Origin: Symbiobacterium thermophilum IAM 14863
GTDB taxonomy: Bacteria; Bacillota; Sulfobacillia; Symbiobacteriales; Symbiobacteriaceae
Length of the DNA: 64,000 nucleotides
Reading direction: 5' to 3'
NCBI RefSeq assembly: GCF_000009905.1
Contig: NC_006177.1
Coordinates: 682,001-746,000 of the forward strand
The notes beneath the pieces are model-generated. The model saw nothing but the letters and a program-made list of their open reading frames with translations. It was not told the origin of the DNA and ran no database searches. Position numbers and translations under genes: made by a program. Within the stretch, counting starts at the first letter, position 1. Each line of letters opens with the position of its first letter. Positions 39,898-59,077 of the stretch are shown here, piece by piece.

Positions 39898-41646
39898 GTC
39901 GTCCCCACGCGCGTGGGGGTGAACCGACGTCTTCTGACGACACTGAGTCACTCCGTAGCGTCGTCCCCACGCGCGTGGGGGTGAACCGTATGAAGTTAGA
40001 GGCTCACCTGCGGCCGAAGCCGTCGTCCCCACGCGCGTGGGGGTGAACCGGAGCACCCCCAGCAGCGCGTTCCACCCCCCGAAGTCGTCCCCACGCGCGT
40101 GGGGGTGAACCGCGAGAAGTAGTCCCATCCACTCCGCCGCATCTGTCGTCCCCACGCGCGTGGGGGTGAACCGTATGAAGTTAGAGGCTCACCTGCGGCC
40201 GAAGCCGTCGTCCCCACGCGCGTGGGGGTGAACCGGAGCACCCCCAGCAGCGCGTTCCACCCCCCGAAGTCGTCCCCACGCGCGTGGGGGTGAACCGCGA
40301 GAAGTAGTCCCATCCACTCCGCCGCATCTGTCGTCCCCACGCGCGTGGGGGTGAACCGGAGGAAGCTTCAGTCTTGGAAACAGGAGTTGCGTCGTCCCCA
40401 CGCGCGTGGGGGTGAACCGTTGCGGGTACAAACGATGGTTCCGCCGTCGAAGTCGTCCCCACGCGCGTGGGGGTGAACCGATTCATCCTATGTCCCAGAC
40501 TTATAACGAAGAAGTCGTCCCCACGCGCGTGGGGGTGAACCGGAGTTCAAGATCGTCTCTGCCAACACTGATGTGTCGTCCCCACGCGCGTGGGGGTGAA
40601 CCAGCTTGTTCTGCGGTTCATGTAGCGGTTGACACGTCGTCCCCACGCGCGTGGGGGTGAACCGTCCCGACCGGCCGCAACCGCCGGAGCGTCTGGACGT
40701 CGTCCCCACGCGCGTGGGGGTGAACCGCGATGCACGAACCGCGGATGCGGGTGCTCTCCCGTCGTCCCCACGCGCGTGGGGGTGAACCGAAGTGGCCTGG
40801 GACAATATTAGGCGGGCCGCAGTCGTCCCCACGCGCGTGGGGGTGAACCGAGGCGGGCCACCTCCAGGATGGCCTCCACCGGGTCGTCCCCACGCGCGTG
40901 GGGGTGAACCGTAAAGCCGCTTCGGGCGGGCAGGGGGGACATGCGTCGTCCCCACGCGCGTGGGGGTGAACCGATGTACGGACTGCATGGACGCAAACGG
41001 ACTGCGTCGTCCCCACGCGCGTGGGGGTGAACCGACCCAATTCGCTACATTTCCCATTTTGCAGTAGTCGTCCCCACGCGCGTGGGGGTGAACCGTAGTC
41101 AATGGGCATAGTGCAAACGTCAGTAGTGGTCGTCCCCACGCGCGTGGGGGTGAACCGTGGCCTGCCTTGGAATCGGGGAGGAGAGAGATGTCGTCCCCAC
41201 GCGCGTGGGGGTGAACCGGGCGGATAAAGGGGGGGTTAGTCGCCCAGCGCGTCGTCCCCACGCGCGTGGGGGTGAACCGTCCTCGCCCGCGGTCGTCAAC
41301 TCCTCGGCCCAGTCGTCCCCACGCGCGTGGGGGTGAACCGCAGCGGATGAGCAGGCGAAGCCAGCGGGGGACGTCGTCCCCACGCGCGTGGGGGTGAACC
41401 GGCGCGGCTTGAGGGCGAGGAAAAGGCCGGTAAAGTCGTCCCCACGCGCGTGGGGGTGAACCGAACGGCGAGTTGGCGCTAGCTGCGGTTGCGTAGTCGT
41501 CCCCACGCGCGTGGGGGTGAACCGCGTGTCGCGAATGCGAAGGCGCGGCTTGAGGGGTCGTCCCCACGCGCGTGGGGGTGAACCGTTATCGTTGCGGCGT
41601 CTAGCTCCTCCAGCACCGTCGTCCCCACGCGCGTGGGGGTGAACCG
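39898..41646 (+). CRISPR. Type I-E CRISPR array, leader-proximal segment (29 repeats)
   Basis: 29-nt repeats begin GTCGTCCC, contain the perfect palindrome CCCCACGCGCGTGGGG (Cas6e stem) and end TGAACCG. They alternate with 32-33-nt spacers at a 61-62-nt period. I count 29 repeats from 39898 to the one at 41618-41646. Three consecutive repeat-spacer units (from 39960) are exactly duplicated (from 40145). The next spacer (from 41647) is split by an insertion sequence and resumes at 43411. The repeat at about 40575 ends AACCA instead of AACCG. Frames across the array are artefacts of the repeat. Confidence 0.98.
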
Positions 41647-41669
41647 AAGCCAATTTGCGGCGCCCCTAG

Positions 41670-43406
41670 CTCAAGTTTCACGCGAACAACTCGACATTCG
41701 TGGTGTTAAAAGGGCGTATGGGTAGGGAGTGGCCCGGTTCAGGGTAATCTCAGCTCCAGCCAGGGGAGTACCCCGGCTGAACACCAACCGCAGCGTGTCG
41801 CCGAGGCACCGAATGGTTGCTCGGCACCGGGCCGCTACTCGTACCAAGAGTCGACTCCCCGCCTCGGCCAGTTTGGGCGAGTTCGTGCTCAGAAACCGCC
41901 AAGCCCAGCGCACCAGGTTGAAGGCGAACAAGACCAGCTGCGTGAAGGCGGCGTTGGCCTCATACTTCCGCATCCGAGGAGTACCAAAGTGGAACGTTCC
42001 CTTCCACTCCTGGAACCCGGCTTCGATGGTCTGCCGTCCATGGTAGAGCTTGACGACCTCTGTCGTGGTGAGCTCCTCAGGCTGGAGCGTAGTCAGGATG
42101 ACGCTGCGGACCTCCCGGCCATCGGCGTCCCAGCGGCGCATGGCGACCAGTCGCACCGGATACGGTGCGAGCAAAGTGGGGCCAGGTACGGTAACGGCTT
42201 CGGAGGCAAACCGGTTCTTCTCGACTTCAACCCAGTTCTCTGCCGGTACAGCGTCGAAGAGGTGCTTGTAGGCGACGTTGCTCCCGGAGTAGGACTTGAT
42301 GGTGAACTCATACCCCAGTTCCAGCAGGCGCTGGATCACTTCCGGCGTGCCAAAGGCGCTGTCAGCTCGCAGCAGAATACGGAGGGGAGCCGGGTTCGTC
42401 CGATTCTCCTGCCGGTACTGCCGGAGTCGCTGGTTCACTTCACGGAGGTGCTGAACCTCCTCCTGGAACTCACGCTGCAGCTTCTGCTTCCGGCGGGCGC
42501 TGCCCTTGCCTGATACCGTCTGCAGTTGCTGATACAGCTGCCTGACCCGAGCCTTCTGCTGAGCCAGGCATGCCTCGACCCATTCGACTCGCCGCAGGGG
42601 ACGACCAATCCGGGCTTCGATCCTGGGAATCAGTTCGAGCAGGCAGGCGCCGGAACGGCTGTTGGCCTTGCCGGACTTGAGAAGGCCGTCGATGGCAAAG
42701 CGCTGCTGCTTCCCGCTGAGGAAGGCGGCTGCGATCTGATAGCCTCGGGCCAACTTCCCCTGGATGTAGCCGAAGTCGGTACCGGTGTACTGCCTGGTCT
42801 CGCCCCGAACCTTCTGGCCGGTGAGGTCAATGTCGACGATGACCATTCCGGAGCGGTCTGGACCTGCTACGGCAGCCACCTCCTGCTGAAGCAGCGGGGC
42901 CTGGATCTCAGCGAGTGCGTCGGAAAGCTGCTGAACGTTCTCCTCCGTCAGCTTGCTGAAGGTCGCACAGACGGTGGAAAAGTGAGCAAAGCGTTCCTGC
43001 CCCCAGGCTTGAGCTACGGCAGGATCGGCAACCAGCGGCTCAGGGTCGAAGTTGAGATCCTTCATGTAGCGACAGTTGCCGAGAATGGCAACCAACGCCT
43101 CGACCACCTTGTCAACCGGCGTGTGGGCGTAGGTCTTCTGCTTGATGCGCAGGTGCCGATTCAGGATCTCAACCAGGTTGAGCCTTTGAGCTACCCAGCC
43201 AAGAGCGACGAGAAAACCATGTCGGGTGGTGGACTTGATGGCTTGCGCAGCGATGTTGGGTGTCGTACCATGAGACTGCATCAGTCGAACCTCCACATGG
43301 TGGATTGGGAGCGGCCACACTCCCACCATGTATCATTGGTTCTGACTGATGCTTTTTCAATGGGTTTCCATTGCACGAAGTCCGGGTTATTCACGCGAAA
43401 CTTGAG
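41670..43406 (-). mobile_element. IS4-superfamily insertion sequence inside a CRISPR spacer
   Basis: A 1,737-bp element. The ends are inverted repeats: CTCAAGTTTCACGCGAA at the left, and CTCAAGTTTCGCGTGAA read inward from the right. The target sequence CTAG is duplicated (41666-41669 and 43407-43410). Removing the element and one CTAG restores a 33-nt spacer, so insertion was clean. One transposase gene fills it, with its stop codon inside the left inverted repeat. Confidence 0.92.
41671..43281 (-). CDS. IS4-superfamily DDE transposase
   Basis: 536 residues from ATG 43281 with GGAGGT 8 nt upstream. The DDE residues are placed in VIVDIDLTGQKV (D), ILLRADSAFGTPE (D) and YHGRQTIEAGFQEWK (E). 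The last fits the IS4 signature Y-x2-R-x3-E-x6-K exactly. The length and motifs are closest to IS1380/IS1634-type members. The gene is intact, so the element may be active. It is transcribed opposite to the CRISPR array. Confidence 0.92.
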   Translation of the reverse strand: MQSHGTTPNIAAQAIKSTTRHGFLVALGWVAQRLNLVEILNRHLRIKQKTYAHTPVDKVVEALVAILGNCRYMKDLNFDPEPLVADPAVAQAWGQERFAHFSTVCATFSKLTEENVQQLSDALAEIQAPLLQQEVAAVAGPDRSGMVIVDIDLTGQKVRGETRQYTGTDFGYIQGKLARGYQIAAAFLSGKQQRFAIDGLLKSGKANSRSGACLLELIPRIEARIGRPLRRVEWVEACLAQQKARVRQLYQQLQTVSGKGSARRKQKLQREFQEEVQHLREVNQRLRQYRQENRTNPAPLRILLRADSAFGTPEVIQRLLELGYEFTIKSYSGSNVAYKHLFDAVPAENWVEVEKNRFASEAVTVPGPTLLAPYPVRLVAMRRWDADGREVRSVILTTLQPEELTTTEVVKLYHGRQTIEAGFQEWKGTFHFGTPRMRKYEANAAFTQLVLFAFNLVRWAWRFLSTNSPKLAEAGSRLLVRVAARCRATIRCLGDTLRLVFSRGTPLAGAEITLNRATPYPYALLTPRMSSCSRET

Positions 43407-43420
43407 CTAGCGCTTCGTCC

Positions 43421-46400
43421 GTCGTCCCCACGCGCGTGGGGGTGAACCGCTGTTCAAGCGTCGTAGTCGCAAACCGAAGGTGTCGTCCCCACGCGCGTGG
43501 GGGTGAACCGTCCAGGGCCCACCACCAGAGCAGGTGCAGGTGGGTCGTCCCCACGCGCGTGGGGGTGAACCGACGGCCGTTCGCAGGGCGGAGTCCGGTG
43601 CCATGTCGTCCCCACGCGCGTGGGGGTGAACCGTCGCCCCTGCAGCTCATCTACCTGCCCCGGGGGTCGTCCCCACGCGCGTGGGGGTGAACCGGAGGGG
43701 TGATCATGAACGAGGATGAACTGCGTGTCGTCCCCACGCGCGTGGGGGTGAACCGCGTTGCTTGCGTCGTCATACCGCTCAACAGTAGCGTCGTCCCCAC
43801 GCGCGTGGGGGTGAACCGTGAGGCTGCGTAGATGGTGCGTGCGGTGCGGAAGTCGTCCCCACGCGCGTGGGGGTGAACCGGCACCAGCGGAGGAGCCTCA
43901 CCGCCCCTCACCGTCGTCCCCACGCGCGTGGGGGTGAACCGAGGGGTTCACCGCCCTGGATGTGCTCCGGTCCGTCGTCCCCACGCGCGTGGGGGTGAAC
44001 CGGACGGTGGTCAGCCAACGATGACGGAGTGGGAGTCGTCCCCACGCGCGTGGGGGTGAACCGTGCTGAACGCTCGTCGGTTCTGCAACAACCTTCGTCG
44101 TCCCCACGCGCGTGGGGGTGAACCAGGGTATGGCACCGAACACCCACAAACGGGGTTCGTCGTCCCCACGCGCGTGGGGGTGAACCGCTGGACGGTATGC
44201 CCTGTCTTTGGCTCGTGAACGTCGTCCCCACGCGCGTGGGGGTGAACCGCGGTCAACAAGGGCAAGGCCTGGGTCCACCCGTCGTCCCCACGCGCGTGGG
44301 GGTGAACCGGTGGCGTCATCGAAGTTGATCACGTCCGCAGCGTGGTCCCCACGCGCGTGGGGGTGAACCGGAGTGCGAGAGACCATGACGCGACTTCTTT
44401 GCGTCGTCCCCACGCGCGTGGGGGTGAACCGCGCCAGGAACATGCCCCGGAGCGTCAGCCGGTGTCGTCCCCACGCGCGTGGGGGTGAACCGGTGTACTG
44501 CATCTACGTGGACGGCAATCTTCGGTCGTCCCCACGCGCGTGGGGGTGAACCGCACATCATCGGCCTCCTGGGCCACCCTGGACAGCGTCGTCCCCACGC
44601 GCGTGGGGGTGAACCGAACTCGCTCAGACAGTCGGTGCTGCACCAGTTGTCGTCCCCACGCGCGTGGGGGTGAACCGGACATTCTGGCACCGGGCGGTGT
44701 GGACCGGTCCGTCGTCCCCACGCGCGTGGGGGTGAACCGAAGCGCAAGGCGAGCCTTAAACGAGAGTTGTCGTCGTCCCCACGCGCGTGGGGGTGAACCG
44801 TCCGGCATCCCAGCCCGCCTGGAGTGGGTCGAGTCGTCCCCACGCGCGTGGGGGTGAACCGCTAGGGAGGTATCGCCATGAAGACGAAACGTCGTCGTCC
44901 CCACGCGCGTGGGGGTGAACCGTTCGAGAGGAGGGAGAGAATGGAGCGGCGCCAGTCGTCCCCACGCGCGTGGGGGTGAACCGTTGCGTAACGCCTACAA
45001 AGCTAGGGAGGTATCGTCGTCCCCACGCGCGTGGGGGTGAACCGCGATCCGTCAGACATGATCCAGTACCCCTGCGGTCGTCCCCACGCGCGTGGGGGTG
45101 AACCGCTCTTTCCGGTCAGGTCGTCCCCTACCTCGATGTCGTCCCCACGCGCGTGGGGGTGAACCGGCGTGATCCCCGGTCGCCACGGCGAACTCTGGGT
45201 CGTCCCCACGCGCGTGGGGGTGAACCGGAGGAGGGTTTCTCCGTGACCATCCTAGAGAAGTCGTCCCCACGCGCGTGGGGGTGAACCGTGCCTGCAGGTG
45301 CTGTTCAGCCTCCTGCTGGCGTCGTCCCCACGCGCGTGGGGGTGAACCGGCGAGACCATCTACCCATGGGAGGCCGGGCCCGTCGTCCCCACGCGCGTGG
45401 GGGTGAACCGTGCTCCAGGGCCTCGCCCATGGCCGACGCCGGCGTCGTCCCCACGCGCGTGGGGGTGAACCGAGCTGCTCAAAAGGAGGGAGAGTGCCAT
45501 GACGTCGTCCCCACGCGCGTGGGGGTGAACCACCAGCTGAGCCGCTTTAAGCATCGCTGTCGCCGTCGTCCCCACGCGCGTGGGGGTGAACCGTCCCTCA
45601 GCAGCTGACCTGCCAGGGCGTAAATGTCGTCCCCACGCGCGTGGGGGTGAACCGTCGCGGAGGCCGAACGCCGGCAGGCCGCCGGCGTCGTCCCCACGCG
45701 CGTGGGGGTGAACCGCACGTAGCAGGAGGCGAGATGAGAGCAGCCGTGGTCGTCCCCACGCGCGTGGGGGTGAACCGATCTCCAACCGTGAGGCGGCCGA
45801 ATGGATCAAGTCGTTCCCACGCGCGTGGGGGTGAACCGGCAACGTGCATCTGGCTACCAAGACCCTGGTCGTCGTCCCCACGCGCGTGGGGGTGAACCGC
45901 GGCGCCCGACCGGCGACATTCTCGTGCGACTGTCGTCCCCACGCGCGTGGGGGTGAACCGGAAACCTGCTGGTACATCACTTACACCTACCGGTCGTCCC
46001 CACGCGCGTGGGGGTGAACCGTCGTCCTGCCAGCCGCCCACCCACTTAATCCCGTCGTCCCCACGCGCGTGGGGGTGAACCGATGAAGCGTCGTCACATG
46101 AGAGTTCGTCCTGCGTCGTCCCCACGCGCGTGGGGGTGAACCGTCCGCCCGGGCCACCGTGAACGGCAACAGCCTCCGTCGTCCCCACGCGCGTGGGGGT
46201 GAACCGATGAGCAGGGTCCCGTCCAGCTCAGCCGCTACGTCGTCCCCACGCGCGTGGGGGTGAACCGTCGAGGAACAGAACCGGGCGGCCCAGAAGCTCG
46301 TCGTCCCCACGCGCGTGGGGGTGAACCGGTGACCAGCTACCTGTACCACCCACCCAAGCAGTCGTCCCCACGCGCGTGGGGGTGAACCGCGGGCCGCCAA

Positions 46401-46936
46401 GGAGGCGATCGAGGCCTCCCAGCGTCGTCCCCACGCGCGTGGGGGTGAACCGCGCCGCGAGCAGGCCATCATGACCCTCGCCGCGTCGTCCCCACGCGCG
46501 TGGGGGTGAACCGGCCCTGCCCAAGCACATCACGGCCGAGCGCCGTCGTCCCCACGCGCGTGGGGGTGAACCGATAAGGGTCTTCACCGGATGACACCTC
46601 CGGAACGTCGTCCCCACGCGCGTGGGGGTGAACCGCTGCCCCTCCCTGATGATCCGGCCGGGGGCCCGTCGTCCCCACGCGCGTGGGGGTGAACCGGAGG
46701 CGGCGCAGAATATCGCTTACGGCGCTGTCGTCCCCACGCGCGTGGGGGTGAACCGGGCCCGAGCGGCCTTGTCCACGCCCTGCAGGCGTCGTCCCCACGC
46801 GCGTGGGGGTGAACCGGACGCTGCCAGCATCCAGCAGTTGGGCTGCCAGTCGTCCCCACGCGCGTGGGGGTGAACCGTCGGGAATTACCGTGCTCTACAC
46901 GGCGCAGGAGTCGTCCCCACGCGCGTGGGGGCACGC
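43421..46936 (+). CRISPR. Type I-E CRISPR array, leader-distal segment (58 repeats)
   Basis: A continuation of the array after the IS, with the same 29-nt repeat and 61-62-nt period. I count 58 repeats from 43421 to the one at 46910, which loses the TGAACCG end and marks the distal end. Repeats near 44097 and 45504 end AACCA. A few carry single changes (GTGGTCC at about 44342, GTCGTTCC at about 45810). Spacers at 44862-44893 and 44984-45015 overlap by 13 nt of target. With the first segment this makes about 87 repeats, a very large array for one locus. Confidence 0.98.
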
Positions 46937-47370
46937 CCAAAGATCATCATGGGTTCGTCGACCTCATCTTGTCTCCCAGGCAGGTGGGGACATACCGTTC
47001 GGCGATTACTGGGTTAAGCCGGTGAGCCAGTCGTGCACACTGCCAAGGCTGGTCGAAGGGTCACGTAGTCCAGCTAGTTAGATTTCCCACCTTGGATCTT
47101 GGTCTAGATAGCGTACAGACGGGTCATTAGTGTACTTCCCCCGCCAGCCCCTGTGGACAGCGCTGTGTCTGCCACGGGGTTTACCGGGGGAAGCCTCGTT
47201 CGAGCCTTCCTGGTTGAGCTACAATACCCTGATCCGATGCCTTGACCCATGCGAGTTGGTTGGGAAGGCGCGTCCTGCCTTATTATCCGGTTGGTCCCGT
47301 CGCGCGACCTGGTGCTCGTGAACTCTGCGGTTCCGCTTCATAGTGCTGCCGGTGTGGAAGATCAGCTTGC
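46937..47370 (+). repeat. Array trailer with degenerate repeats; otherwise no gene
   Basis: Exactly 61 nt after the last repeat, 46971-46997 reads GTCTCCCAGGCAGGTGGGGA followed by CATACCG, an eroded repeat. Another may start at 47030 (GTCGTGCAC). Beyond that I see no gene or signal up to the cas promoter. Confidence 0.6.
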
Positions 47371-47443
47371 CGCCATACTCGCGCTAGGCAAACACCGAAA
47401 CACTTTCAGAACCGTTGACAACACACTCGCCTCATATTATTCT
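47371..47443 (+). promoter_or_regulatory. Probable cas operon promoter with guide-RNA target site
   Basis: TTGACA (47415-47420), 17 nt, TATTCT (47438-47443) is a good sigma-A-type promoter; transcription should start near 47450. Just upstream, the minus strand reads AAG (47405-47403) followed by TGTTTCGG (47402-47395). That is a I-E PAM plus a perfect match to the first 8 nt of the degenerate-array spacer at 47493. The full 32-nt pseudo-protospacer spans 47371-47402 and abuts the -35 region, so Cascade bound here should hinder RNA polymerase. Confidence 0.7.
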
Positions 47444-47462
47444 GACTAAGTGAGAAATACTA

Positions 47463-47554
47463 CCTTTCCCCATGCTCCGTGGGGCTGGCCCGTGTTTCGG
47501 CGTCTGTCGTCCGAGCGGAACAGGCAGGTCTCCACGCACGTGGAGGGTAGAACG
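47463..47554 (+). ncRNA. Degenerate mini-CRISPR (CreR-like guide RNA candidate) in the cas leader
   Basis: Two eroded repeats at 47463-47492 and 47525-47554 are 62 nt apart and flank a 32-nt spacer (47493-47524), the same geometry as the main array. Repeat 1 keeps CCCCA-N7-TGGGG and ends GGCCCG. Repeat 2 keeps CTCCACGCACGTGGAG, in which a C:G stem pair has become T:A on both arms, so pairing is preserved. The spacer starts TGTTTCGGCGTCTGTC and matches the promoter-upstream site in 13 of the first 16 positions, including positions 1-8, next to AAG. Mismatches fall at 9, 12 and 15; position 12 is one that Cascade flips out. Processing by Cas6e and autorepression of the operon are inferred. Confidence 0.75.
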
Positions 47555-47577
47555 AAACTTGAAAGGAGGCGAGCTCT

Positions 47578-47751
47578 TTGGCCGAGGAGGTCGTACTGGA
47601 GGTGGCACGGCGGATGTACGCCCAGGCCGAACTCCATTCAGATGGCACCAGGGTGTTCCGCGGGTCACCTCGATCCCTCATGGAGCAGCTTGGCTCCAGC
47701 AGTGGCCGTGGTCCGAATGCAGAGTGGTTGGTTCCACCGTCGGTGCCCTAA
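47578..47751 (+). CDS. Small ORF in the cas leader, 57 residues
   Basis: It starts at TTG 47578 with AAAGGAGG about 8 nt upstream and ends at TAA 47751, 79 nt before cas1. The product reads LAEEVVLEVARRMYAQAEL, then HSDGTRVFRGSPRSLMEQLG and ends in NAEWLVPPSVP. I recognise no family; the middle faintly resembles a helix-turn-helix. It could be a regulator remnant, a toxin-like small protein as in CreTA modules, or non-coding. The ribosome binding site is the main support. Confidence 0.4.
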   Translation: MAEEVVLEVARRMYAQAELHSDGTRVFRGSPRSLMEQLGSSSGRGPNAEWLVPPSVP

Positions 47752-47830
47752 GAAACTCCGTTCCCTGGCGTGGCACTAAGTGGACGTCTGAGCTTGCCGT
47801 CTGCCACTTCGCACCTGTGGGGGGAACGCC

Positions 47831-48754
47831 GTGCGAAACCTGCGCATCCTGCCGAAGGTCAGGGACAGCTGGTCGTACTTGTACGTCGAACATGCCCGGA
47901 TCGACCAGGAGGACAAAGGCATCTGCATTCACGACGCCAAGGGCCGGGTACACGTGCCCTGCGCCTCCCTTAGTCTCCTCATGCTTGGCCCGGGCACCAG
48001 CGTGACCCACGCGGCCGTCATGGCCATGGTGGAGGCCGGCTGTCTGGTGGCGTGGTGCGGGGAGCAGGGGGTGCGGTTCTACGCCCAGGGGATGGGGGAG
48101 ACTCGGAGCGCGGTCAACCTCATGCAGCAGGCCAGGTTCTGGGCCGACCCGCAGCGCCGGATGCAGGTGGTACGGCGGATGTATGAGATGCGGTTCGGTG
48201 AGCCCCTGGATCCCTCGCTCAGCCTCCGTCAGATCCGGGGAAAGGAAGGGGCGCGCGTCCGGACGGCGTACGCCAGGGCCAGCGAGACCTACGGCGTGCC
48301 TTGGTCCGGACGCAACTACGACCGGAACGACTGGGACCGTTCGGATCCGGTGAACCGGGCGCTCTCGGCCGCTAACGCCTGCCTCTACGGGGTGTGTCAT
48401 GCGGCGATTGTGGCTGCAGGGTACTCCCCTGCCCTTGGCTTCATCCACACGGGCAAGATGCTGAGCTTTGTTTATGACGTGGCGGATCTGTACAAGACGG
48501 AAATTACGATTCCCGCCGCATTCATGGAGGTGGCCAAGGGCGTCCAGCGGCTGGAGAGCCGGGTGCGCCACCGCTGTCGCGACCTGTTTGCGGAAAGGCG
48601 GCTGCTGGAGCGAATCGTCACCGATCTGGCCCGCTTGTTCGATCTGGACCCTAATCCGGAACCGGAAGTGGATCTGGAGGTCGCACTGCCCGGCGACCTG
48701 TGGGATCCCGAGGGACCTGTGGCCGGTGGTCGAAACTTCGGGGGGCGGTCGTGA
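47831..48754 (+). CDS. cas1: CRISPR-associated endonuclease Cas1 (type I-E)
   Basis: 307 residues from GTG 47831 with GGGGGGAA 6 nt upstream. It is the metal-dependent integrase that, with Cas2, inserts new spacers at the leader end of the array. Cas1e motifs are Glu in [39 protein letters not shown], His in [21 protein letters not shown] and the following Asp. It is the first gene of the operon here, whereas cas1-cas2 usually come last in I-E loci. Its stop overlaps the start of the cas2-cas3 gene (TGATG), so integrase and fused partner are co-translated. Confidence 0.96.
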
Positions 48755-51700
48755 TGGTAGTCCTGATTGTGGAGTCCGCCCCGCCCGGCCTGCGGGGGGA
48801 GCTGTCTAAATGGATGCTGGAACCCCGGGCGGGGGTCTTCGTCGGCAGCGTATCCGCGGCCGTTCGGGACCTGCTCTGGGAAAAGGCCTGCCAGGAAGTC
48901 GGCGACGGCGGTTGCATCATGATCTACCGAACCAACAACGAGCAGGGCTTCGCCGTTCGCACCTGGGGCGACACCACCCGGGAGGTGGAGGACTGGGAGG
49001 GGCTGTTTCTCGTCCGGCGGCCCGATCGCCCGTCCGACAATCCCCATATGTCGTTTACCCCCCCGCAGGATTGGAACGACTACCTCCATCCGGAGATCTG
49101 GGCCAAGACTGCCCGCGGCGTTGAACTCGCGGAAGGGGAGGGTCACTATCATCCCCTCTGTTGCCACATGATCGACACTGCCATGGTGGCCTGGCGCATG
49201 TGGCGGTATGTGCTTCCCCAGCGCCTGCGCGACCAGATCCGCCGCCAACTGGGGCTACAGACCGATGACGAGGCTGGCCGCTGGATCGCATTCTTCGCCG
49301 GACTGCACGATCTGGGCAAGGCCACGCCCGCCTTTGCCAAGCAGTGGCCGGAGGGATGGCGGCTGCTCACGGAACAGAAATACGGGGCAGCCTCCGGTTC
49401 GGAATCCAAGCCCCATTACGTCCTTACCACTTTCCTGTTGGAGTCGCTGCTGGAGGAGCTGGGGCTGCCCGGTGCCGTGGCGGTGCCGGTAGCCGCTGTG
49501 ATTGGCGCGCACCATGGCCTGTTCCCCACCGCCACTGATCTGCGACATGCAGAACGCTATGCGGGCAAGGCAAAGTGGCAGGAGGCGCAGGCCCACCTGG
49601 TCCGGCTGCTGGCCCACGTGTTGGGCGTCGATCGGCTGAACGTCCCGACGGGTGATCTGTGGCAGGCCAACAGCCTGTTGGTGATCCTGGCGGGCCTCAC
49701 CAGTGTCGCAGACTGGATCGCGTCCAACCACACCTACTTCCCCTTTGCCGGCGACCGGGTACGCCTTCCCTCCTACGCCCGGCAGGCCCGCTGGCGGGCC
49801 TGGATGGCCCTTCACCAGTTGGGTTGGTTCCATCGGCCGGTCGCAATGGCGCCGCGATCCTTTACCGAACTCTTCGACAAGGTGCCTAACCACCTGCAGA
49901 AACAGGTGTTGGCGATTGCAGATCGTCTCAGCGGCCCCAGCCTGGTCCTGCTGGAGTATCCGATGGGCGGCGGGAAGACCGAGGCGGCCCTGTATCTGGC
50001 CGATTCCCTCGCCGTTGCCGCGGGCCAGAAGGGGCTCTACTTTGCCCTGCCCACCATGGCCACCAGCAACCAGATGTTCGGCCGCGTCAACCGCTATCTG
50101 GTCAACCGCTTCCCCGGCAGCCGCATCAACGTGCAGCTCCTGCATGGCCATGCGTCCCTCAACGCCGAGTTTGAGCTGCTGCGCGCAGCCCACCTTCAGG
50201 AACTGGAACGAAGGAGGGCAGGGCGGGAACAGGAGCTGGCGGCGGTCGGCGAATCCACTGCCGCGACCGTGCTGGCGGCAGAGTGGTTCACCTACAAGAA
50301 GCGAGGCCTGCTCGCCCCTTATGGCATCGGTACCATCGACCAGGCCTTGCTGTCGGTGCTGCAGACGAAGCATTTCTTCGTCCGCCTGTTTGGACTGGCG
50401 GGTAAGGTCGTGATCCTGGACGAGGTACACGCCTATGACACCTACATGCAGACTTTGCTGACCCGGCTGCTCACCTGGCTGGCTGCCTGCGGTACCTCGG
50501 TGGTCCTGCTCTCCGCGACCTTGCCCGCGCACACCCGCAAGGCGCTGGTGGCGGCTTACGCAGCAGGCCGAGGGCTGCCTGCACCTGCCGAGCCGGAAGT
50601 CACGTACCCCCGTGTCACCTGGCTGACCGATATGGAATCGAATGCGGTTCACATCGAGGGAGCTGCAACTCGCACCATCACCCTGCGCCGTTACGCCCAG
50701 GATGACGAGGGCTGGATGCGGGCCTTGCAGGAAGCGCTGGTGGATGGGGGCTGCGCGGCGGTCATCGTCAACACCGTCAGCCGCGCCCAGGCCGTGTACC
50801 AGAAGCTGCAGGACTACTTCCCTCCAGAGGAGCTGTGTCTCTTCCATGCCCGCTATCCCTTCGATGATCGGATGGCCCGGGAACGGGAGGTTCTGACCCG
50901 GTTCGGGCCGGGCATCGCGGACCGGCCCCGGCGTGCGGTCCTGGTGGCCACGCAGGTAGTCGAACAGTCCCTGGATCTGGACTTCGACCTGCTGGTGACC
51001 GATCTGGCCCCGGTGGACCTGGTCTTCCAACGCAGCGGCCGGCTCTGGCGGCACCGCCGGGAGTGGCGTCCCCCAGGGTTCACCGAACCCACCCTGTGGT
51101 TGCTCATGCCGCCGCTGGACGAGCAGGGTGTTCCCCAGTTCGAGCGCGGCTCCCGCCTCATCTACGACCACCACACCATGCTGCGGAGCTGGCTGGTGTT
51201 GGCGCAGCAGGATCACCTCTGCATCCCCGATCAGCTGGAGCCCATGGTGGAAGCGGTCTACCGGCCCGCTGACCCTCCGGAGGAGCTGCCGGAGCCGCTG
51301 CGGGCGCTATGGCTCCAGACCCGGGCTGTACTGGAAGCGGAGCAAGCCCGAGACCAGCAGGAGGCGCGGCGGCGGTACATTCCCGACGTGCACCAGAACC
51401 TGCTGGAGATGGTCCTGACGGATCTGGAAGAGGAAGGCGAGAGCCACCCCGCGGTGCAGGCGCTTACCCGGCTCGGCGGGATTGCGGTGACCGCCGTCTG
51501 CCTGGTCGAGGCCGATGGCCGGTTGTGGGCGCCGGGTCCCGAGCCAAGGGAGATCCATCTCCAGAGACGCCCCGACAAGGAGGATGTCCGGGCCCTGCTT
51601 GGGCGTGCGATCGCCATCAGCTTCGATCCCGGGCTGGCCCGGCAGATCCTGGCTCTGGATCCGCCGGAGGTCTGGGAAGGTTCCGCCTACCTCCGCCGGT

Positions 51701-51858
51701 GCCGGCTCCTGACGTTCGACCCGGCGGGCAACTGCCTCACGGCCGGGTTGCCTTTGCGCCTGGACCCCGAACTGGGGCTCTTGAAGATCCCTGGCGGAGA
51801 GGAGGAGGAAGAGGAGTGCCGCGATTTTCCCTCTGGGAAGACCCGTGGATCCCGGTGA
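48754..51858 (+). CDS. Fused Cas2-Cas3 protein of a type I-E system
   Basis: A 1,034-residue single ORF. Residues 1-90 are a full Cas2e domain (VVLIVESAPPGLRGELSKWM, EPRAGVFVGSVSAAVRDLLWEK, MIYRTNNEQGFAVRTWG), joined by about 15 residues to a complete Cas3. The HD nuclease (about 105-330) has HMIDTA, GLHDLGKA (His185-Asp186) and IGAHHG. The SF2 helicase has Walker A MGGGKT (404-409), DEVH (556-559), SAT (587-589) and TQVVEQSLDLDFDLLVTDLAP. Cas3 degrades DNA bound by Cascade; Cas2 scaffolds spacer integration. No separate cas2 or cas3 exists in this locus. A Cas2-Cas3 fusion is standard in type I-F but unusual in I-E. The 3' end overlaps cas8e by 43 nt. Confidence 0.95.
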   Translation: MVVLIVESAPPGLRGELSKWMLEPRAGVFVGSVSAAVRDLLWEKACQEVGDGGCIMIYRTNNEQGFAVRTWGDTTREVEDWEGLFLVRRPDRPSDNPHMSFTPPQDWNDYLHPEIWAKTARGVELAEGEGHYHPLCCHMIDTAMVAWRMWRYVLPQRLRDQIRRQLGLQTDDEAGRWIAFFAGLHDLGKATPAFAKQWPEGWRLLTEQKYGAASGSESKPHYVLTTFLLESLLEELGLPGAVAVPVAAVIGAHHGLFPTATDLRHAERYAGKAKWQEAQAHLVRLLAHVLGVDRLNVPTGDLWQANSLLVILAGLTSVADWIASNHTYFPFAGDRVRLPSYARQARWRAWMALHQLGWFHRPVAMAPRSFTELFDKVPNHLQKQVLAIADRLSGPSLVLLEYPMGGGKTEAALYLADSLAVAAGQKGLYFALPTMATSNQMFGRVNRYLVNRFPGSRINVQLLHGHASLNAEFELLRAAHLQELERRRAGREQELAAVGESTAATVLAAEWFTYKKRGLLAPYGIGTIDQALLSVLQTKHFFVRLFGLAGKVVILDEVHAYDTYMQTLLTRLLTWLAACGTSVVLLSATLPAHTRKALVAAYAAGRGLPAPAEPEVTYPRVTWLTDMESNAVHIEGAATRTITLRRYAQDDEGWMRALQEALVDGGCAAVIVNTVSRAQAVYQKLQDYFPPEELCLFHARYPFDDRMAREREVLTRFGPGIADRPRRAVLVATQVVEQSLDLDFDLLVTDLAPVDLVFQRSGRLWRHRREWRPPGFTEPTLWLLMPPLDEQGVPQFERGSRLIYDHHTMLRSWLVLAQQDHLCIPDQLEPMVEAVYRPADPPEELPEPLRALWLQTRAVLEAEQARDQQEARRRYIPDVHQNLLEMVLTDLEEEGESHPAVQALTRLGGIAVTAVCLVEADGRLWAPGPEPREIHLQRRPDKEDVRALLGRAIAISFDPGLARQILALDPPEVWEGSAYLRRCRLLTFDPAGNCLTAGLPLRLDPELGLLKIPGGEEEEEECRDFPSGKTRGSR

Positions 51859-53426
51859 TTCGGCTCTCCGGCCACCCGGACCGCCTGAGCCTCCGACAGG
51901 CCCTGGCCGAGGCGCATGTGGTCCGGGAGGTCTGCGACCCATCACCCCTGGTGGTGGTCGCCATCCACCGTCTGCTGATGGCGCTCATCTACCGGGTCTA
52001 CCGGCCGGTGACCCGCGCCGACTGGGCCGCCCTCTGGAACGCGGGGCGCTTTGACCCGGGACCGCTGGACGGCTACGGCGCCTTCTGGATGGACCGCTTT
52101 GAACTGTTCCATCCTGAGCGCCCGTTCTACCAGGTTCCCTTCATCGACGGGGAAAAGGTGCACCCCATCAGCGCTCTGGTGTTGGAGGCCGCATCCGGCA
52201 ACAACCCTACCCTGTTCGACCACGGCCGGGTGGAGGGGGGCGTGGCCTTGCCGCCCGACCGTGCGGCCTGTCATCTGCTGGCCCATCAACTCTTTGCCCT
52301 GGGTGGTGGGGTGAGCAAGCCGTTCAACCGCATGGATGCGCCCCTCACCAAGGGGCTGGTGGTGGAGGCCCTGGACACCAACCTGTTTCGGACGCTGCTG
52401 CTCAACACGCTTCCCCTCGAGGACTGGGAACGGTTGATTCCCCCCACGGATGACGACGCGCCATTCTGGGAGGGGGACGATCCCCCGGAACCGGTGCGGG
52501 AGGGCACTCCGGTGAAGGGGCCGCTCCACTACCTGACGTGGCAGAGCCGCCAGCTTCACCTCTGCACCGACGAGGAGTCCGGTCTGGTGACCGGCTGCCA
52601 GATCCGGCAGCGCTACGCCCTGCCCAAAGACGGCGTCCGCCTGGATCCGGGCAAGGTCTACCAGCAGTCGCCGAAAGAGGGGTTTGTGCCATTTAAGCTC
52701 AACAAGGAGCGGGCGGTCTGGCAGTACACCCATGTCCTGCTGCAGACCAGCGGGCAGGACTACTCGAGGCCGTATCTCACGGACTGGCTGGCCACCATGC
52801 ACCGCTTCCGCAGCCGGTATGGGATTGCGTTTCCGTCCCGCGTGATCCTGGCGGTGACGGGGCTCACCACCGACCCGCAAAAGGCGGCCAAGGTCGAGCT
52901 GTGGCGCCGGGAGCGGCTGCCTCTGCCCATGACCATCTTGGACCAGCCCGAACTGATGGCCGAGGTGGAGGAGATGCTGGCGGAGGCCCGGCGGGTGGAA
53001 GGGCTGCTGAGCCGGACCGCGCAGGCGCTGGTCTGGGCGAGTGCGGAGCGCAAAGCCCTTGGGGATGCGGTCACGTACACCTGGACCGGCAAGCTTCCTC
53101 CGGGGAAGAAGCTGGATCAGGTGAAGGGGCTGGCCAGGAGCCTGGGCATGGTCGCCCGTTACTGGCCACAACTGGAAGAACCGTTCCGCCGGTCTATCGA
53201 GGATCTGGCCGTCAAGTCCGCCGGGGAGGTGCGCAGCGCGTGGCGGGAGGCGGTGATGATGGCTGCCCGGGACGCCTTCCGCTCTGGACGGGACGGACTG
53301 CTGCACACCGAAGCGTCGTTTGAGGTGTTGACCTGCGTGGGCAGCGCCTTCCACGGCAAGCTGTCCCGAATCTTCGCGGCAGCGGGAGAGGAGGAGACCG
53401 AGTCCGATGAAGGGGCCATCGAGTAG
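51816..53426 (+). CDS. casA: Cascade large subunit Cse1/CasA (Cas8e)
   Basis: 536 residues from GTG 51816 with GGAGGAGGAAGAGGA upstream, inside the end of the cas2-cas3 gene. The start FSLWEDPWIPVIRLSGHPDRLSLRQAL is typical of Cse1. PAM-recognition and Cas3-recruiting large-subunit features include the GVSKPFNRMDAPL region, YLTWQSRQLHL, and a C-terminal four-helix bundle (about residues 380-510). In I-E it reads the PAM and recruits Cas3. Here the fused Cas2 would be brought along. Confidence 0.94.
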   Translation: MPRFSLWEDPWIPVIRLSGHPDRLSLRQALAEAHVVREVCDPSPLVVVAIHRLLMALIYRVYRPVTRADWAALWNAGRFDPGPLDGYGAFWMDRFELFHPERPFYQVPFIDGEKVHPISALVLEAASGNNPTLFDHGRVEGGVALPPDRAACHLLAHQLFALGGGVSKPFNRMDAPLTKGLVVEALDTNLFRTLLLNTLPLEDWERLIPPTDDDAPFWEGDDPPEPVREGTPVKGPLHYLTWQSRQLHLCTDEESGLVTGCQIRQRYALPKDGVRLDPGKVYQQSPKEGFVPFKLNKERAVWQYTHVLLQTSGQDYSRPYLTDWLATMHRFRSRYGIAFPSRVILAVTGLTTDPQKAAKVELWRRERLPLPMTILDQPELMAEVEEMLAEARRVEGLLSRTAQALVWASAERKALGDAVTYTWTGKLPPGKKLDQVKGLARSLGMVARYWPQLEEPFRRSIEDLAVKSAGEVRSAWREAVMMAARDAFRSGRDGLLHTEASFEVLTCVGSAFHGKLSRIFAAAGEEETESDEGAIE

Positions 53427-53982
53427 GCAGGTTGAGTTTGCAGGGTGGTTGAGCGGACTCGACGACCGGGGGACGCTGGCCGCCCTCCGCCGGGGGCTGA
53501 TGCTGGAGGAAGAGCAGCTGTTTGAGCTCTTCGGGTATGTGCCTCCGCGTTTCCTGACCGGACTCCGGCCCGGGGAGGAGCGACTGTATCTCATGGTCGC
53601 TGCCCTCTACGCCTACCATCCGGTGAGCTTCGGCGAGGAGGAGCTGGCCGAGCGTAGGCGCAACCTGGGCGAGTCGCTGCGGCGGCTGGCTGAAGAAAAG
53701 GCCCGCCAGCGCGGCGGGCTGGACGAAGGGGAAGAACTGCTGCCCGAATCCCTGAAACGCCGCATGGAGGCGCTTCTGAGCGCACCGAGGGCGGATCTGT
53801 TCGGCCACCTGCGCCAGGTGATCAGCCTCTTGAAGAGTGAGGAGATTCCGGTGGACTGGGCGCAACTTCTCAGCGATCTGCAGCGGTGGGAAGCCCCGGA
53901 CCGCCGCGTCCAGTGGGCCTGGAGCCGATCCTTCTACGTTGGCTACCAGACAGAGGGAGGGGATGAGACCGATGTTCGTTGA
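53407..53982 (+). CDS. casB: Cascade small subunit Cse2/CasB (Cas11)
   Basis: 191 all-helical residues from ATG 53407, overlapping casA by 20 nt. Cse2 traits are TLAALRRGLMLEEEQLFELFGYVPP, LYLMVAALYAYHPV, ESLKRRMEALLSAPRADLFGHLRQVISLLKS in pieces, and the C-terminal VQWAWSRSFY. Two copies line the belly of Cascade and hold the target/non-target strands. Operon position between casA and cas7 confirms the call. Confidence 0.92.
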   Translation: MKGPSSRQVEFAGWLSGLDDRGTLAALRRGLMLEEEQLFELFGYVPPRFLTGLRPGEERLYLMVAALYAYHPVSFGEEELAERRRNLGESLRRLAEEKARQRGGLDEGEELLPESLKRRMEALLSAPRADLFGHLRQVISLLKSEEIPVDWAQLLSDLQRWEAPDRRVQWAWSRSFYVGYQTEGGDETDVR

Positions 53983-55111
53983 GATGCACCTGCTCCAGAA
54001 CTTTGCGCTGTCCAACCTGAACCGGGATGACACCGGGGCGCCGAAGAGCTGCGTCTTCGGCGGCACCCGCCGGGCGCGCATCTCCAGCCAGTGCCTCAAA
54101 CGCGCCGTCCGGACCTATGTGCGGGAGCAAGCCCTGGTTCCGTCTGAGCTGCTGTCCTACCGTACGAAGTGGTTGCAGCGGGAGCTGGCCAACCGGCTTG
54201 CGGCCGGAGGGGTGGAGGCGGAGCAGGCCGGCCAGGTGGCGGCTCGGGCGTTGGAGCTGTTGGAGTTCCGGCTGAAGAACGGTCGGACCGAGTATCTGTT
54301 GATGGTCGGGGAGCGGGAGATCGCCCGCATCGCGGATCTCTGCCGGGAGCACGCCGCGGCCCTCCAGGGCGGGGACGGCGGGCGGAAGAGCAAGAAGGAG
54401 GGGGACAACCTCGCAGGCCTTTTCCTGAAAGCCCTGGATGGGGGCGACGCGGTGGACATCGCCCTCTTTGGCCGGATGATCGCCACCCATCCGGAGAAGA
54501 ACGTGGATGCGGCTGTCCAGATGGCCCACGCCTTCTCGACCAACGCCATTGCCAACGAGTTCGACTTCTACTCGGCGGTGGACGACCTGCAGCAGCAGGA
54601 CGATGACGAAGGGGCCGGGGCCGGCATGCTGGGCACGGTTCTGTACAACAGCTCCTGCTATTACCGGTACGCCAATGTGGACCTCCGGCAGCTGCTCACC
54701 AATCTCGGCGGGGATCCTGACCGGGCGCTCACCGCGGTGCGGGCCTTCCTGCTGGGCATGGTGCATGCCGTCCCTACCGGCAAGCGGACCAATTCGGCGC
54801 CCCAGAATCCTCCGGCGCTCATCATGGCGGTGGTGCGGGAACACGGGTTGTGGTCGCTAGCCAACGCCTTTGTAGTGCCTGTCTCCGGTGCCAGAGGCAA
54901 CCTGATGGAGCTTTCGGCCAAGGAAATGCTGGCTCACTGGAATCAGTTGTCCGAACTCTACGGGCAGGAAGGTGTCCACTACGCCGGACTTGCCACGTAC
55001 CTTTCGAGCGACGCGATTGGTGCGTCAAACGCCGTCGGTATCGCCGTGGAGAAACGGCTGGCCGACCTCGTGGATCGGGTGCTGGCGGAAGTACAGCCGG
55101 CGCTGGCCTGA
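53972..55111 (+). CDS. cas7e: Cascade backbone subunit Cas7/CasC (Cse4)
   Basis: 379 residues. ATG 53972 has GAGGGAGGGG at a suitable distance; ATG 53963 is too close to it. Family motifs are MFVEMHLLQNFALSNLNRDDTGAPKSCVFGG in pieces, RRARISSQCLKRAVR, MATHPEKNVDAAVQMAHAFSTN and the thumb GMLGTVLYNSSCYYRYANVDL. Six copies wrap the crRNA spacer. It overlaps casB by 11 nt. Confidence 0.95.
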   Translation: MFVEMHLLQNFALSNLNRDDTGAPKSCVFGGTRRARISSQCLKRAVRTYVREQALVPSELLSYRTKWLQRELANRLAAGGVEAEQAGQVAARALELLEFRLKNGRTEYLLMVGEREIARIADLCREHAAALQGGDGGRKSKKEGDNLAGLFLKALDGGDAVDIALFGRMIATHPEKNVDAAVQMAHAFSTNAIANEFDFYSAVDDLQQQDDDEGAGAGMLGTVLYNSSCYYRYANVDLRQLLTNLGGDPDRALTAVRAFLLGMVHAVPTGKRTNSAPQNPPALIMAVVREHGLWSLANAFVVPVSGARGNLMELSAKEMLAHWNQLSELYGQEGVHYAGLATYLSSDAIGASNAVGIAVEKRLADLVDRVLAEVQPALA

Positions 55112-55121
55112 GGTGGTGGAT

Positions 55122-55820
55122 ATGTACACGCTGCTCCTGCGACTGGCAGGCCCCATGCAGTCGTGGGGAACCGCCAGCCGGTTTACCGAACGGGATACCG
55201 GGATGGAGCCGTCCAAGTCGGGCGTGATCGGCATTCTGTGCGCTGCCCTGGGCAAGCCGCGGGAGGAGCGGCCGGAAGATGGTGGACGTTGGCCCTCGCT
55301 GGCGGAACTGGCGAGACTGCGGATGGGCGTGCGCATCGACGCGCCGGGCCGAGTTGGCGTGGATTTCCAGACTGCCGGCGGTGGACGATTGGGCACCCGC
55401 CCTTACGGTGTCGCCAAGGCGGATGGGAGCAAGCCAGATTCGGTAATGAGCTGGCGCTACTATCTGGAAGATGCGGCCTTCCTCGTGGGCCTGGAAAGCG
55501 GGAATCGGGCGCTGCTGGAGCGATTGCACGTCGCCCTGCGGGAACCGGTGTGGCCCCTGTACCTGGGCCGGAAGTCCTACGTCCCCTCGTCGCCGATCTT
55601 CCTGCCGGACGGGCTGCGGGAAGGCGGTCTGGAGACGGTGCTGGCGCAGTACCCGCCCTTGGTGGTATCCGGACAGGAGCGGGTGCGGGTGGTGGTCGAC
55701 CAGGCAGAACCATCTGGCGAAGTGCGGATGGATGTGCCGCTCGACTTTGCCCGCCGGTTGTTCGGCATTCGCTATGTGTGCAGTTACTCGATTGACCTGC
55801 CTGACGAGGCCGGGACGTAG
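55122..55820 (+). CDS. cas5e: Cascade subunit Cas5/CasD
   Basis: 232 residues from ATG 55122 (GAGGTGG upstream). Motifs are the RAMP N-terminus YTLLLRLAGPMQSWGTASRF, DTGMEPSKSGVIGILCAALG, and YLGRKSYVPSSPIFLPDGL. It caps the 5' handle of the crRNA in Cascade. It follows cas7 by 10 nt. Confidence 0.95.
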   Translation: MYTLLLRLAGPMQSWGTASRFTERDTGMEPSKSGVIGILCAALGKPREERPEDGGRWPSLAELARLRMGVRIDAPGRVGVDFQTAGGGRLGTRPYGVAKADGSKPDSVMSWRYYLEDAAFLVGLESGNRALLERLHVALREPVWPLYLGRKSYVPSSPIFLPDGLREGGLETVLAQYPPLVVSGQERVRVVVDQAEPSGEVRMDVPLDFARRLFGIRYVCSYSIDLPDEAGT

Positions 55821-55832
55821 GAGGTGGAGCGA

Positions 55833-56507
55833 GTGTATCTTTCTCTCTTACGCCTGAACCCAGCTTCGGCGGCAGTACAGCGCGACCTCCGGGACGTGCA
55901 GGCGCTGCACCAGCGGGTGATGTCGGCCTTTCCCGATGTGCTGGATCCTGAGGTGGAGGCCCGGGCGTACTTCGGGGTTCTGTACCGGCTGGAGCTGAAC
56001 CGGTACAGCGGGCAGGTCCTCCTCTATGTGCAGTCGCGGGTGGAGCCCGACTGGGGGCGGCTCCCTGCCGGTTACTTGACCCCGGCTGATGGATTGCCCA
56101 ATCCTGCGGTCAAGCGGGTGGATGAGGCTTATGCCCGTATCCGGGAGGGGCGAGTGCTCCGATTCCGGTTGCGGGCGAACCCGACGCGCAAGATCGACAC
56201 GAAGTCGGGGCCGAATGGGGAGAAGCGTAACGGCCGGCGCGTGCCGCTGTCCGGGTTGGACGCGCAGCTCGGGTGGATGGAGAGGAAGGCCCGGGAGCAT
56301 GGCTTCGAACTCCTGGAGGCGACGGTGGCCGCCGCCGGGGCCAGTGAACGGGTGCGGAGCTACACCACCGGGCGTACCTTCCAGGGCGTGTTGTTCGAGG
56401 GCCGCCTGGTGGTACGGGATGCGGGGAGGTTCCGGGAGGCGCTGGAACGGGGAATCGGTCCGGGAAAGGCGTACGGCTACGGCCTGTTGTCGGTGGGGCC
56501 GGGTTAG
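55833..56507 (+). CDS. cas6e: crRNA endoribonuclease Cas6e/CasE
   Basis: 224 residues from GTG 55833 (GGAGGTGGAG 7 nt upstream; GTG 55824 lies inside that site). It cleaves repeats at the base of the CCCCAC/GTGGGG stem and stays bound to the 3' handle. The N-terminus MYLSLLRLNP and a His at residue 26 (DVQALHQRVMSAFP), equivalent to the catalytic His20 of the E. coli enzyme, are present. The Gly-rich C-terminus GIGPGKAYGYGLLSVGPG is typical. It is the last gene of the operon. Confidence 0.95.
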   Translation: MYLSLLRLNPASAAVQRDLRDVQALHQRVMSAFPDVLDPEVEARAYFGVLYRLELNRYSGQVLLYVQSRVEPDWGRLPAGYLTPADGLPNPAVKRVDEAYARIREGRVLRFRLRANPTRKIDTKSGPNGEKRNGRRVPLSGLDAQLGWMERKAREHGFELLEATVAAAGASERVRSYTTGRTFQGVLFEGRLVVRDAGRFREALERGIGPGKAYGYGLLSVGPG

Positions 56508-58993: not shown

Positions 58994-59077
58994 GGCATCC
59001 CCACGCGCGTGACGCTGAGCCGCGTAACGGAAGTCGTTGCCGTCTACGACACCTCCTCAAAGCGTGAGCGTGAACCC
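58994..59077 (+). CRISPR. Orphan CRISPR-like repeat remnant
   Basis: 58994-59022 contains TCCCCACGCGCGTG and ends CTGAGCCG, matching the array repeat at about 22 of 29 positions, in the same orientation. A weaker candidate, AGCGTGAGCGTGAACCC (59061-59077), is at a 55-nt rather than a 61-nt period. It is probably what is left of a second array on the far side of the cas genes. Confidence 0.55.

Follow-up and report, generated by a model that had tools for sequence, protein, structure and literature searches.

The window analysed here, a 64,000-nt stretch of the genome of Symbiobacterium thermophilum IAM 14863 (contig NC_006177.1, positions 682,001 to 746,000), carries a type I-E CRISPR-Cas locus whose gene set is complete and whose genes, including that for Cas6e, are all open (Pfam). 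The operon lies on the plus strand and begins with cas1 (47831-48754; PF01867), followed by cas2 and cas3 in a single reading frame (48754-51858; PF09707, PF18019, and PF22590), cse1 or cas8e (open frame 51309-53426, true start near 51.8 kb; PF09481), cse2 or cas11 (53407-53982; PF09485), cas7e (open frame 53837-55111, true start near 53.97 kb; PF09344), cas5e (open frame 54972-55820, true start near 55.12 kb; PF09704), and cas6e (55824-56507; PF08798), which encodes the predicted processing enzyme. The locus was compared with cas loci of the same class, three of which bear a second handle below (G053 = L083, G132 = L078, G148 = L077). The Cas2-Cas3 fusion is also present in L079, and the cas2-cas3 frame is open to the end of the available sequence in L009, L011, and L012; the two proteins are not fused in L077, L078, L080, and L081. 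In G132 (L078:9861-10922) and G148 (L077:10301-11467) a WYL-domain regulator stands first in the cas operon, and none was seen at the head of the operon in the window.

The main I-E array (39898-46938, plus strand) holds 86 near-perfect repeats and 84 spacers and reads toward the cas genes. Within it, a 185-nt block of three units is present as two exact tandem copies (39960-40329), and a transposase-like ORF (41671-43329) interrupts the array, with intact repeats on both sides. The tail of the array is degenerate and is followed by more than 400 nt free of repeats before the cas promoter, a TTGACA-17-TATTCT element with a sigma-70-like consensus (47415-47443, plus strand). This is the only sigma-70-like match in 47040-47840, where 0.1 would be expected. 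Between the promoter and cas1 there is a 57-aa ORF (47578-47751), preceded by a strong AAAGGAGG site; Pfam gave no match for it, and none of the compared loci has a relative. Beyond the operon lies an orphan degenerate repeat (58994-59022). AAG plus the 8 nt that follow this repeat occur once in the genome, inside cas6e (56223-56233), which is probably a chance match.

A Degenerate Mini-CRISPR in the cas Leader

Two eroded repeats flanking a 32-nt spacer lie between the promoter and cas1, at the coordinates that the original prediction had given. Repeat R1 (47463-47492, CCTTTCCCCATGCTCCGTGGGGCTGGCCCG) supplies a 5' handle, the spacer TGTTTCGGCGTCTGTCGTCCGAGCGGAACAGG occupies 47493-47524, and repeat R2 (47525-47554, CAGGTCTCCACGCACGTGGAGGGTAGAACG) supplies a 3' stem-loop, all on the plus strand. 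Aligned to the array repeat GTCGTCCCCACGCGCGTGGGGGTGAACCG, R1 scores 10 and R2 scores 13. Outside the array, only one repeat-like site in the 64 kb window scores better than R2. R1 would not attract attention by itself, but apart from the array no other pair of repeat-like sites with CRISPR spacing exists in 38-60 kb of the window. This one-spacer unit is near the cas operon, about 480 nt beyond the degenerate end of the main array, and an Rfam search returned nothing near a gathering score.

The two repeats are 61-62 nt apart and the stems of both are preserved, each being predicted to fold as the array-repeat hairpin. For R1 the predicted stem comprises 7 bp, one of them G-U, and contains one inserted base, while in R2 the stem is retained through a paired exchange of C:G to U:A, so that the compensatory change claimed earlier is borne out by the fold. 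The 5' handle of R1, CTGGCCCG, is identical to that of the array repeat, GTGAACCG, at 5/8 positions and differs at the other three; the repeat-type handle is better kept in G132 and G148.

Match of the Spacer to the cas Promoter

The first 8 nt of the spacer recur on the minus strand as AAG followed by TGTTTCGG (47405-47395), with the PAM at 47403-47405 and the identical seed at 47402-47395, within a predicted 32-bp protospacer (47371-47402, minus strand); AAG and seed lie 91 nt from the guide. The seed and its position directly after AAG agree with the original prediction, as does the identity at 13 of the first 16 positions (19/32 overall). The guide would pair with the promoter at positions 1-8, 10, 11, 13, 14, and 16, with mismatches at 9, 12, and 15. 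Position 12 is, as had been claimed, a flipped-out base, and to this we add that position 15 is an rU:dG wobble, which leaves the C:A at position 9 as the only predicted functional mismatch among the first 16. The predicted target does not cover the -35 box but is situated upstream of it, and the PAM is 9 nt from the box, which corrects the 10 nt given before. The cas leader had also been proposed as both source and target of the guide. The first half of this proposal stands, but the leader is the guide source only, since the protospacer is promoter DNA upstream of the transcript.

The match is beyond chance. In the genome searched (3,566,135 bases, a single contig), AAGTGTTTCGG occurs once, exactly at the promoter site. 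When some 180,000 random genomic 16-mers were compared with the 121-nt promoter region, a seed match with AAG was found for 20 of them and a 13/16 match with AAG for none (0/~180,000), and a comparable match (13/16 plus AAG) was likewise absent among the 84 main-array spacers tested on this region. A general scan for hairpin plus seed was too permissive and was replaced by repeat-based scans with controls. In one of these, AAG hits of 60 repeat-like pairs were counted at distant positions and within 150 nt: there were none at ~920,000 distant positions vs two within 150 nt, those of the window and of G053. The G132 pair was missed in this control through a one-base shift of its repeat boundary.

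Relation to CreR and CreA Guides

The original description of CreR reportedly is that of Liu et al. in Cell Host Microbe in 2023, which is known to us through reviews. In three such accounts, CreR is a cas-regulating RNA made from modulatory mini-CRISPRs that autorepresses cas, and it is reported for types I-B, I-E, and V-A (PMC12737573, PMC13131331, PMC12948488). The original prediction had cited CreR-like guides of other type I systems; CreR autorepression has already been published for I-E itself, so that the interpretation is not new in kind, and the locus described here is probably another, candidate CreR. The likeness to CreR, as presented there, lies in a one-spacer degenerate CRISPR at a cas locus, the partial complementarity to the cas promoter, the lack of a toxin, and the system type, I-E being among those reported. 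R1 and R2 have the predicted Cas6-type hairpin, the spacer begins with a limited stretch of complementarity to the cas promoter that adjoins a PAM, with position 9 mismatched, and an intact effector and Cas6 are encoded in the same genome. In contrast to CreR as described there, the guide in the window is predicted from sequence, has the mismatch at position 9, and is located inside the 5' leader of the operon that it would target.

A second point of comparison is CreA, the guide of the two-repeat creTA module, which represses its own source promoter (Cheng et al., 2021; PMC8501985). The window shares with it a pair of divergent, degenerate repeats from which the 5' and 3' handles derive, a pairing pattern resembling 1-5 and 7-11 with 6 and 12 free, and the predicted repression of the guide's own source promoter (PMC8501985). 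However, CreA represses a toxin in archaea with type I-B systems, whereas the promoter here leads to I-E cas genes and no toxin was identified (PMC8501985). The H. hubeiense CreA (type I-B) is an experimentally tested precedent for such repression; only ten positions pair in it, and changing any of positions 1-5 or 7-11 abolished function (PMC8501985). The C:A mismatch at position 9 falls within these ten positions and is a point against guide function in the window, as are the three differing positions of the R1 handle and a target that does not cover the -35 box; the extra pairing at 13, 14, and 16 is a counterweight.

Parallel Guides in Relatives

The comparison with relatives that had been proposed at the outset yielded parallels in three loci, which by their sequences are the strongest support for reading the interval as a guide. 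In G053, the gap between cas3 and cse1 holds a pair of degenerate repeats with a 61-nt spacing, whose spacer GGTTGCAGGATCGGTG pairs with AAG-GGTTGTAGGATAGGTA 49 nt upstream; through position 15 the only mismatches are 6 and 12, followed by one at 16, which makes this pairing the cleanest of all. In G132, the mini-CRISPR is between cas2 and cas3 and its spacer is short (~21 nt); the sequence of this spacer is GGTTGGTCTCTGAC, and its pairing partner AAG-GGTTGTTCTCTC is located 63 nt upstream on the opposite strand, with mismatches at 6 and 12 and all ten of positions 1-5 and 7-11 paired. With AAG, paired positions 1-5 and 7-11, and mismatched 6 and 12, both are textbook cases as predicted guides. 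The mini-CRISPR of G148 lies between cas6 and cas1, and its 12-nt run recurs 5.3 kb away in the gap between cas3 and cse1, where the target precedes a TTGACA box by 11 nt, vs 9 nt in the window. In the register set by the repeat, the PAM is AAA and 13 of the first 14 positions match, with the mismatch at position 2; in the +1 register the PAM is AAG and 12 positions match in a row, with the mismatch at position 1. The promoters targeted in these three loci lead directly into cas genes. The four sites, including that of the window, occupy different positions and are not all oriented alike, so that one rule seems to have been realized independently in each, more than a single locus inherited by all.

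The nearest relative with the same layout behaves differently. L011 (76% identity in Cas1; order array, leader, cas1) has a leader that aligns to both R1 and R2, but the repeats are decayed, the hairpins more degraded, and there is no seed match in the leader. It keeps CAAACACCnAAnnACTT (L011:1720-1750), with CTT, the complement of AAG, located upstream of TTGACA at the 9-nt distance also seen in the window. Of the further genomic matches to this AAG-site sequence that were readable, none was flanked by a repeat. A guide in L011 was accordingly rejected, as was the repeat-like sequence before cas1 in L079, which has no target. A search of the taxonomic order with the leader DNA found no homologue outside its own genome. 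Either L011 would thus have lost its guide, or CAAACACCnAAnnACTT may also have another role, for example as an upstream promoter element which may be masked by Cascade in the window. The original prediction had made the persistence of the match together with the mini-array a touchstone; G053, G132, and G148 agree with this, and L011 departs from it in its absent seed match, but its repeats are not intact.

L011 bears also on the question whether the guide of the window still works. It could once have regulated the operon and have eroded since, at position 9 and in the R1 handle, to the point of giving no measurable repression now. The mismatch and the 5/8 handle, set against the perfect 10/10 pairing in G053 and G132, point in this direction, as does the further decay of the same leader in L011. 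However, the compensatory change has kept the R2 stem, the I-E seed (1-5 and 7-8), PAM, and spacing are intact, the match is unique in the genome, and pairing continues at 13, 14, and 16, which makes loss of function unlikely. Considerably less likely still is that guide and target have nothing to do with each other, the direct repeat TGTTTCGG-TGTTTG being an activator site or UP element and the leader copy with its hairpins array debris. The conservation of CAAACACCnAAnnACTT in L011 in the absence of a guide and the degenerate repeats in which the main array ends ~480 nt upstream would suit such an explanation, but the leader copy begins precisely where R1 ends, the promoter copy follows AAG immediately, G053 and G132 obey the same rule at unrelated promoter sequences, and the chance rate is very low; moreover, a site can be conserved and serve as a Cascade target at once. 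Array debris as the origin of the mini-CRISPR was rejected, the pair being ~480 nt past the array tail and the start of its spacer coinciding with the exact start of the match. That the guide is instead a CreA-like antitoxin, silencing a small toxic RNA or the 57-aa ORF and not tuning cas, recalls the haloarchaeal CreTA antitoxin that represses its own source promoter (PMC8501985) and the strong site before that ORF between R2 and cas1, but is highly improbable given an ORF with neither Pfam match nor relative in the compared loci, a non-exhaustive search for small ORFs that identified no rare-codon mini-ORF, and targeted promoters in G053, G132, and G148 that lead straight into cas genes.

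A Model for cas Autorepression

We favor the reading that the interval encodes a CreR-type guide for cas autorepression, to which we assign a probability of roughly 0.8. That the locus limits its own expression with a guide from its own 5' leader, as had been proposed, is supported as the best reading by the parallels in the relatives, the repression itself being predicted. In this model, the cas promoter would transcribe R1, spacer, and R2 as the 5' leader of the cas1-cas2/3-cse1-cse2-cas7-cas5-cas6 operon, and Cas6e, to judge from the conserved stems, would cut below both hairpins. The product would be a crRNA-like RNA of ~61 nt that starts with CUGGCCCG and ends in the R2 stem. Cascade loaded with this guide would recognize AAG, form the pairs described above, and, seated 9 nt upstream of the -35 box, may block RNA polymerase or an upstream element, with a pairing presumably too short for cleavage by Cas3. 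By analogy with CreR, the level of the operon would be set by free Cascade and would rise when other crRNAs or inhibitors occupy Cascade, and through this loop the levels of Cas6e and Cascade may be sensed.

A wider generalization is tentative, and we consider it possible but doubtful as a whole. Under it, guides for cas autorepression would have evolved several times in this class, at varied places in the operon: ahead of cas1, in the gaps cas2-cas3 and cas3-cse1, and, acting in trans, behind cas6. In one subgroup the PAM would be held at a distance of 9-11 nt from TTGACA, on its upstream side, letting Cascade cover a conserved upstream promoter element; and since the operon carries in its 5' leader the guide directed against itself, the repressor would be produced along with every round of cas transcription.

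The candidate guide would extend RNA-guided self-control of CRISPR systems to a thermophilic lineage of the Firmicutes. With predicted guide and target available from four loci, the rules of such guides (whether positions 6 and 12 are free, which PAM is used, and how far from the -35 box it lies) can be tested on a set of natural cases. Eroded mini-arrays beside cas genes, moreover, are not to be written off as debris.
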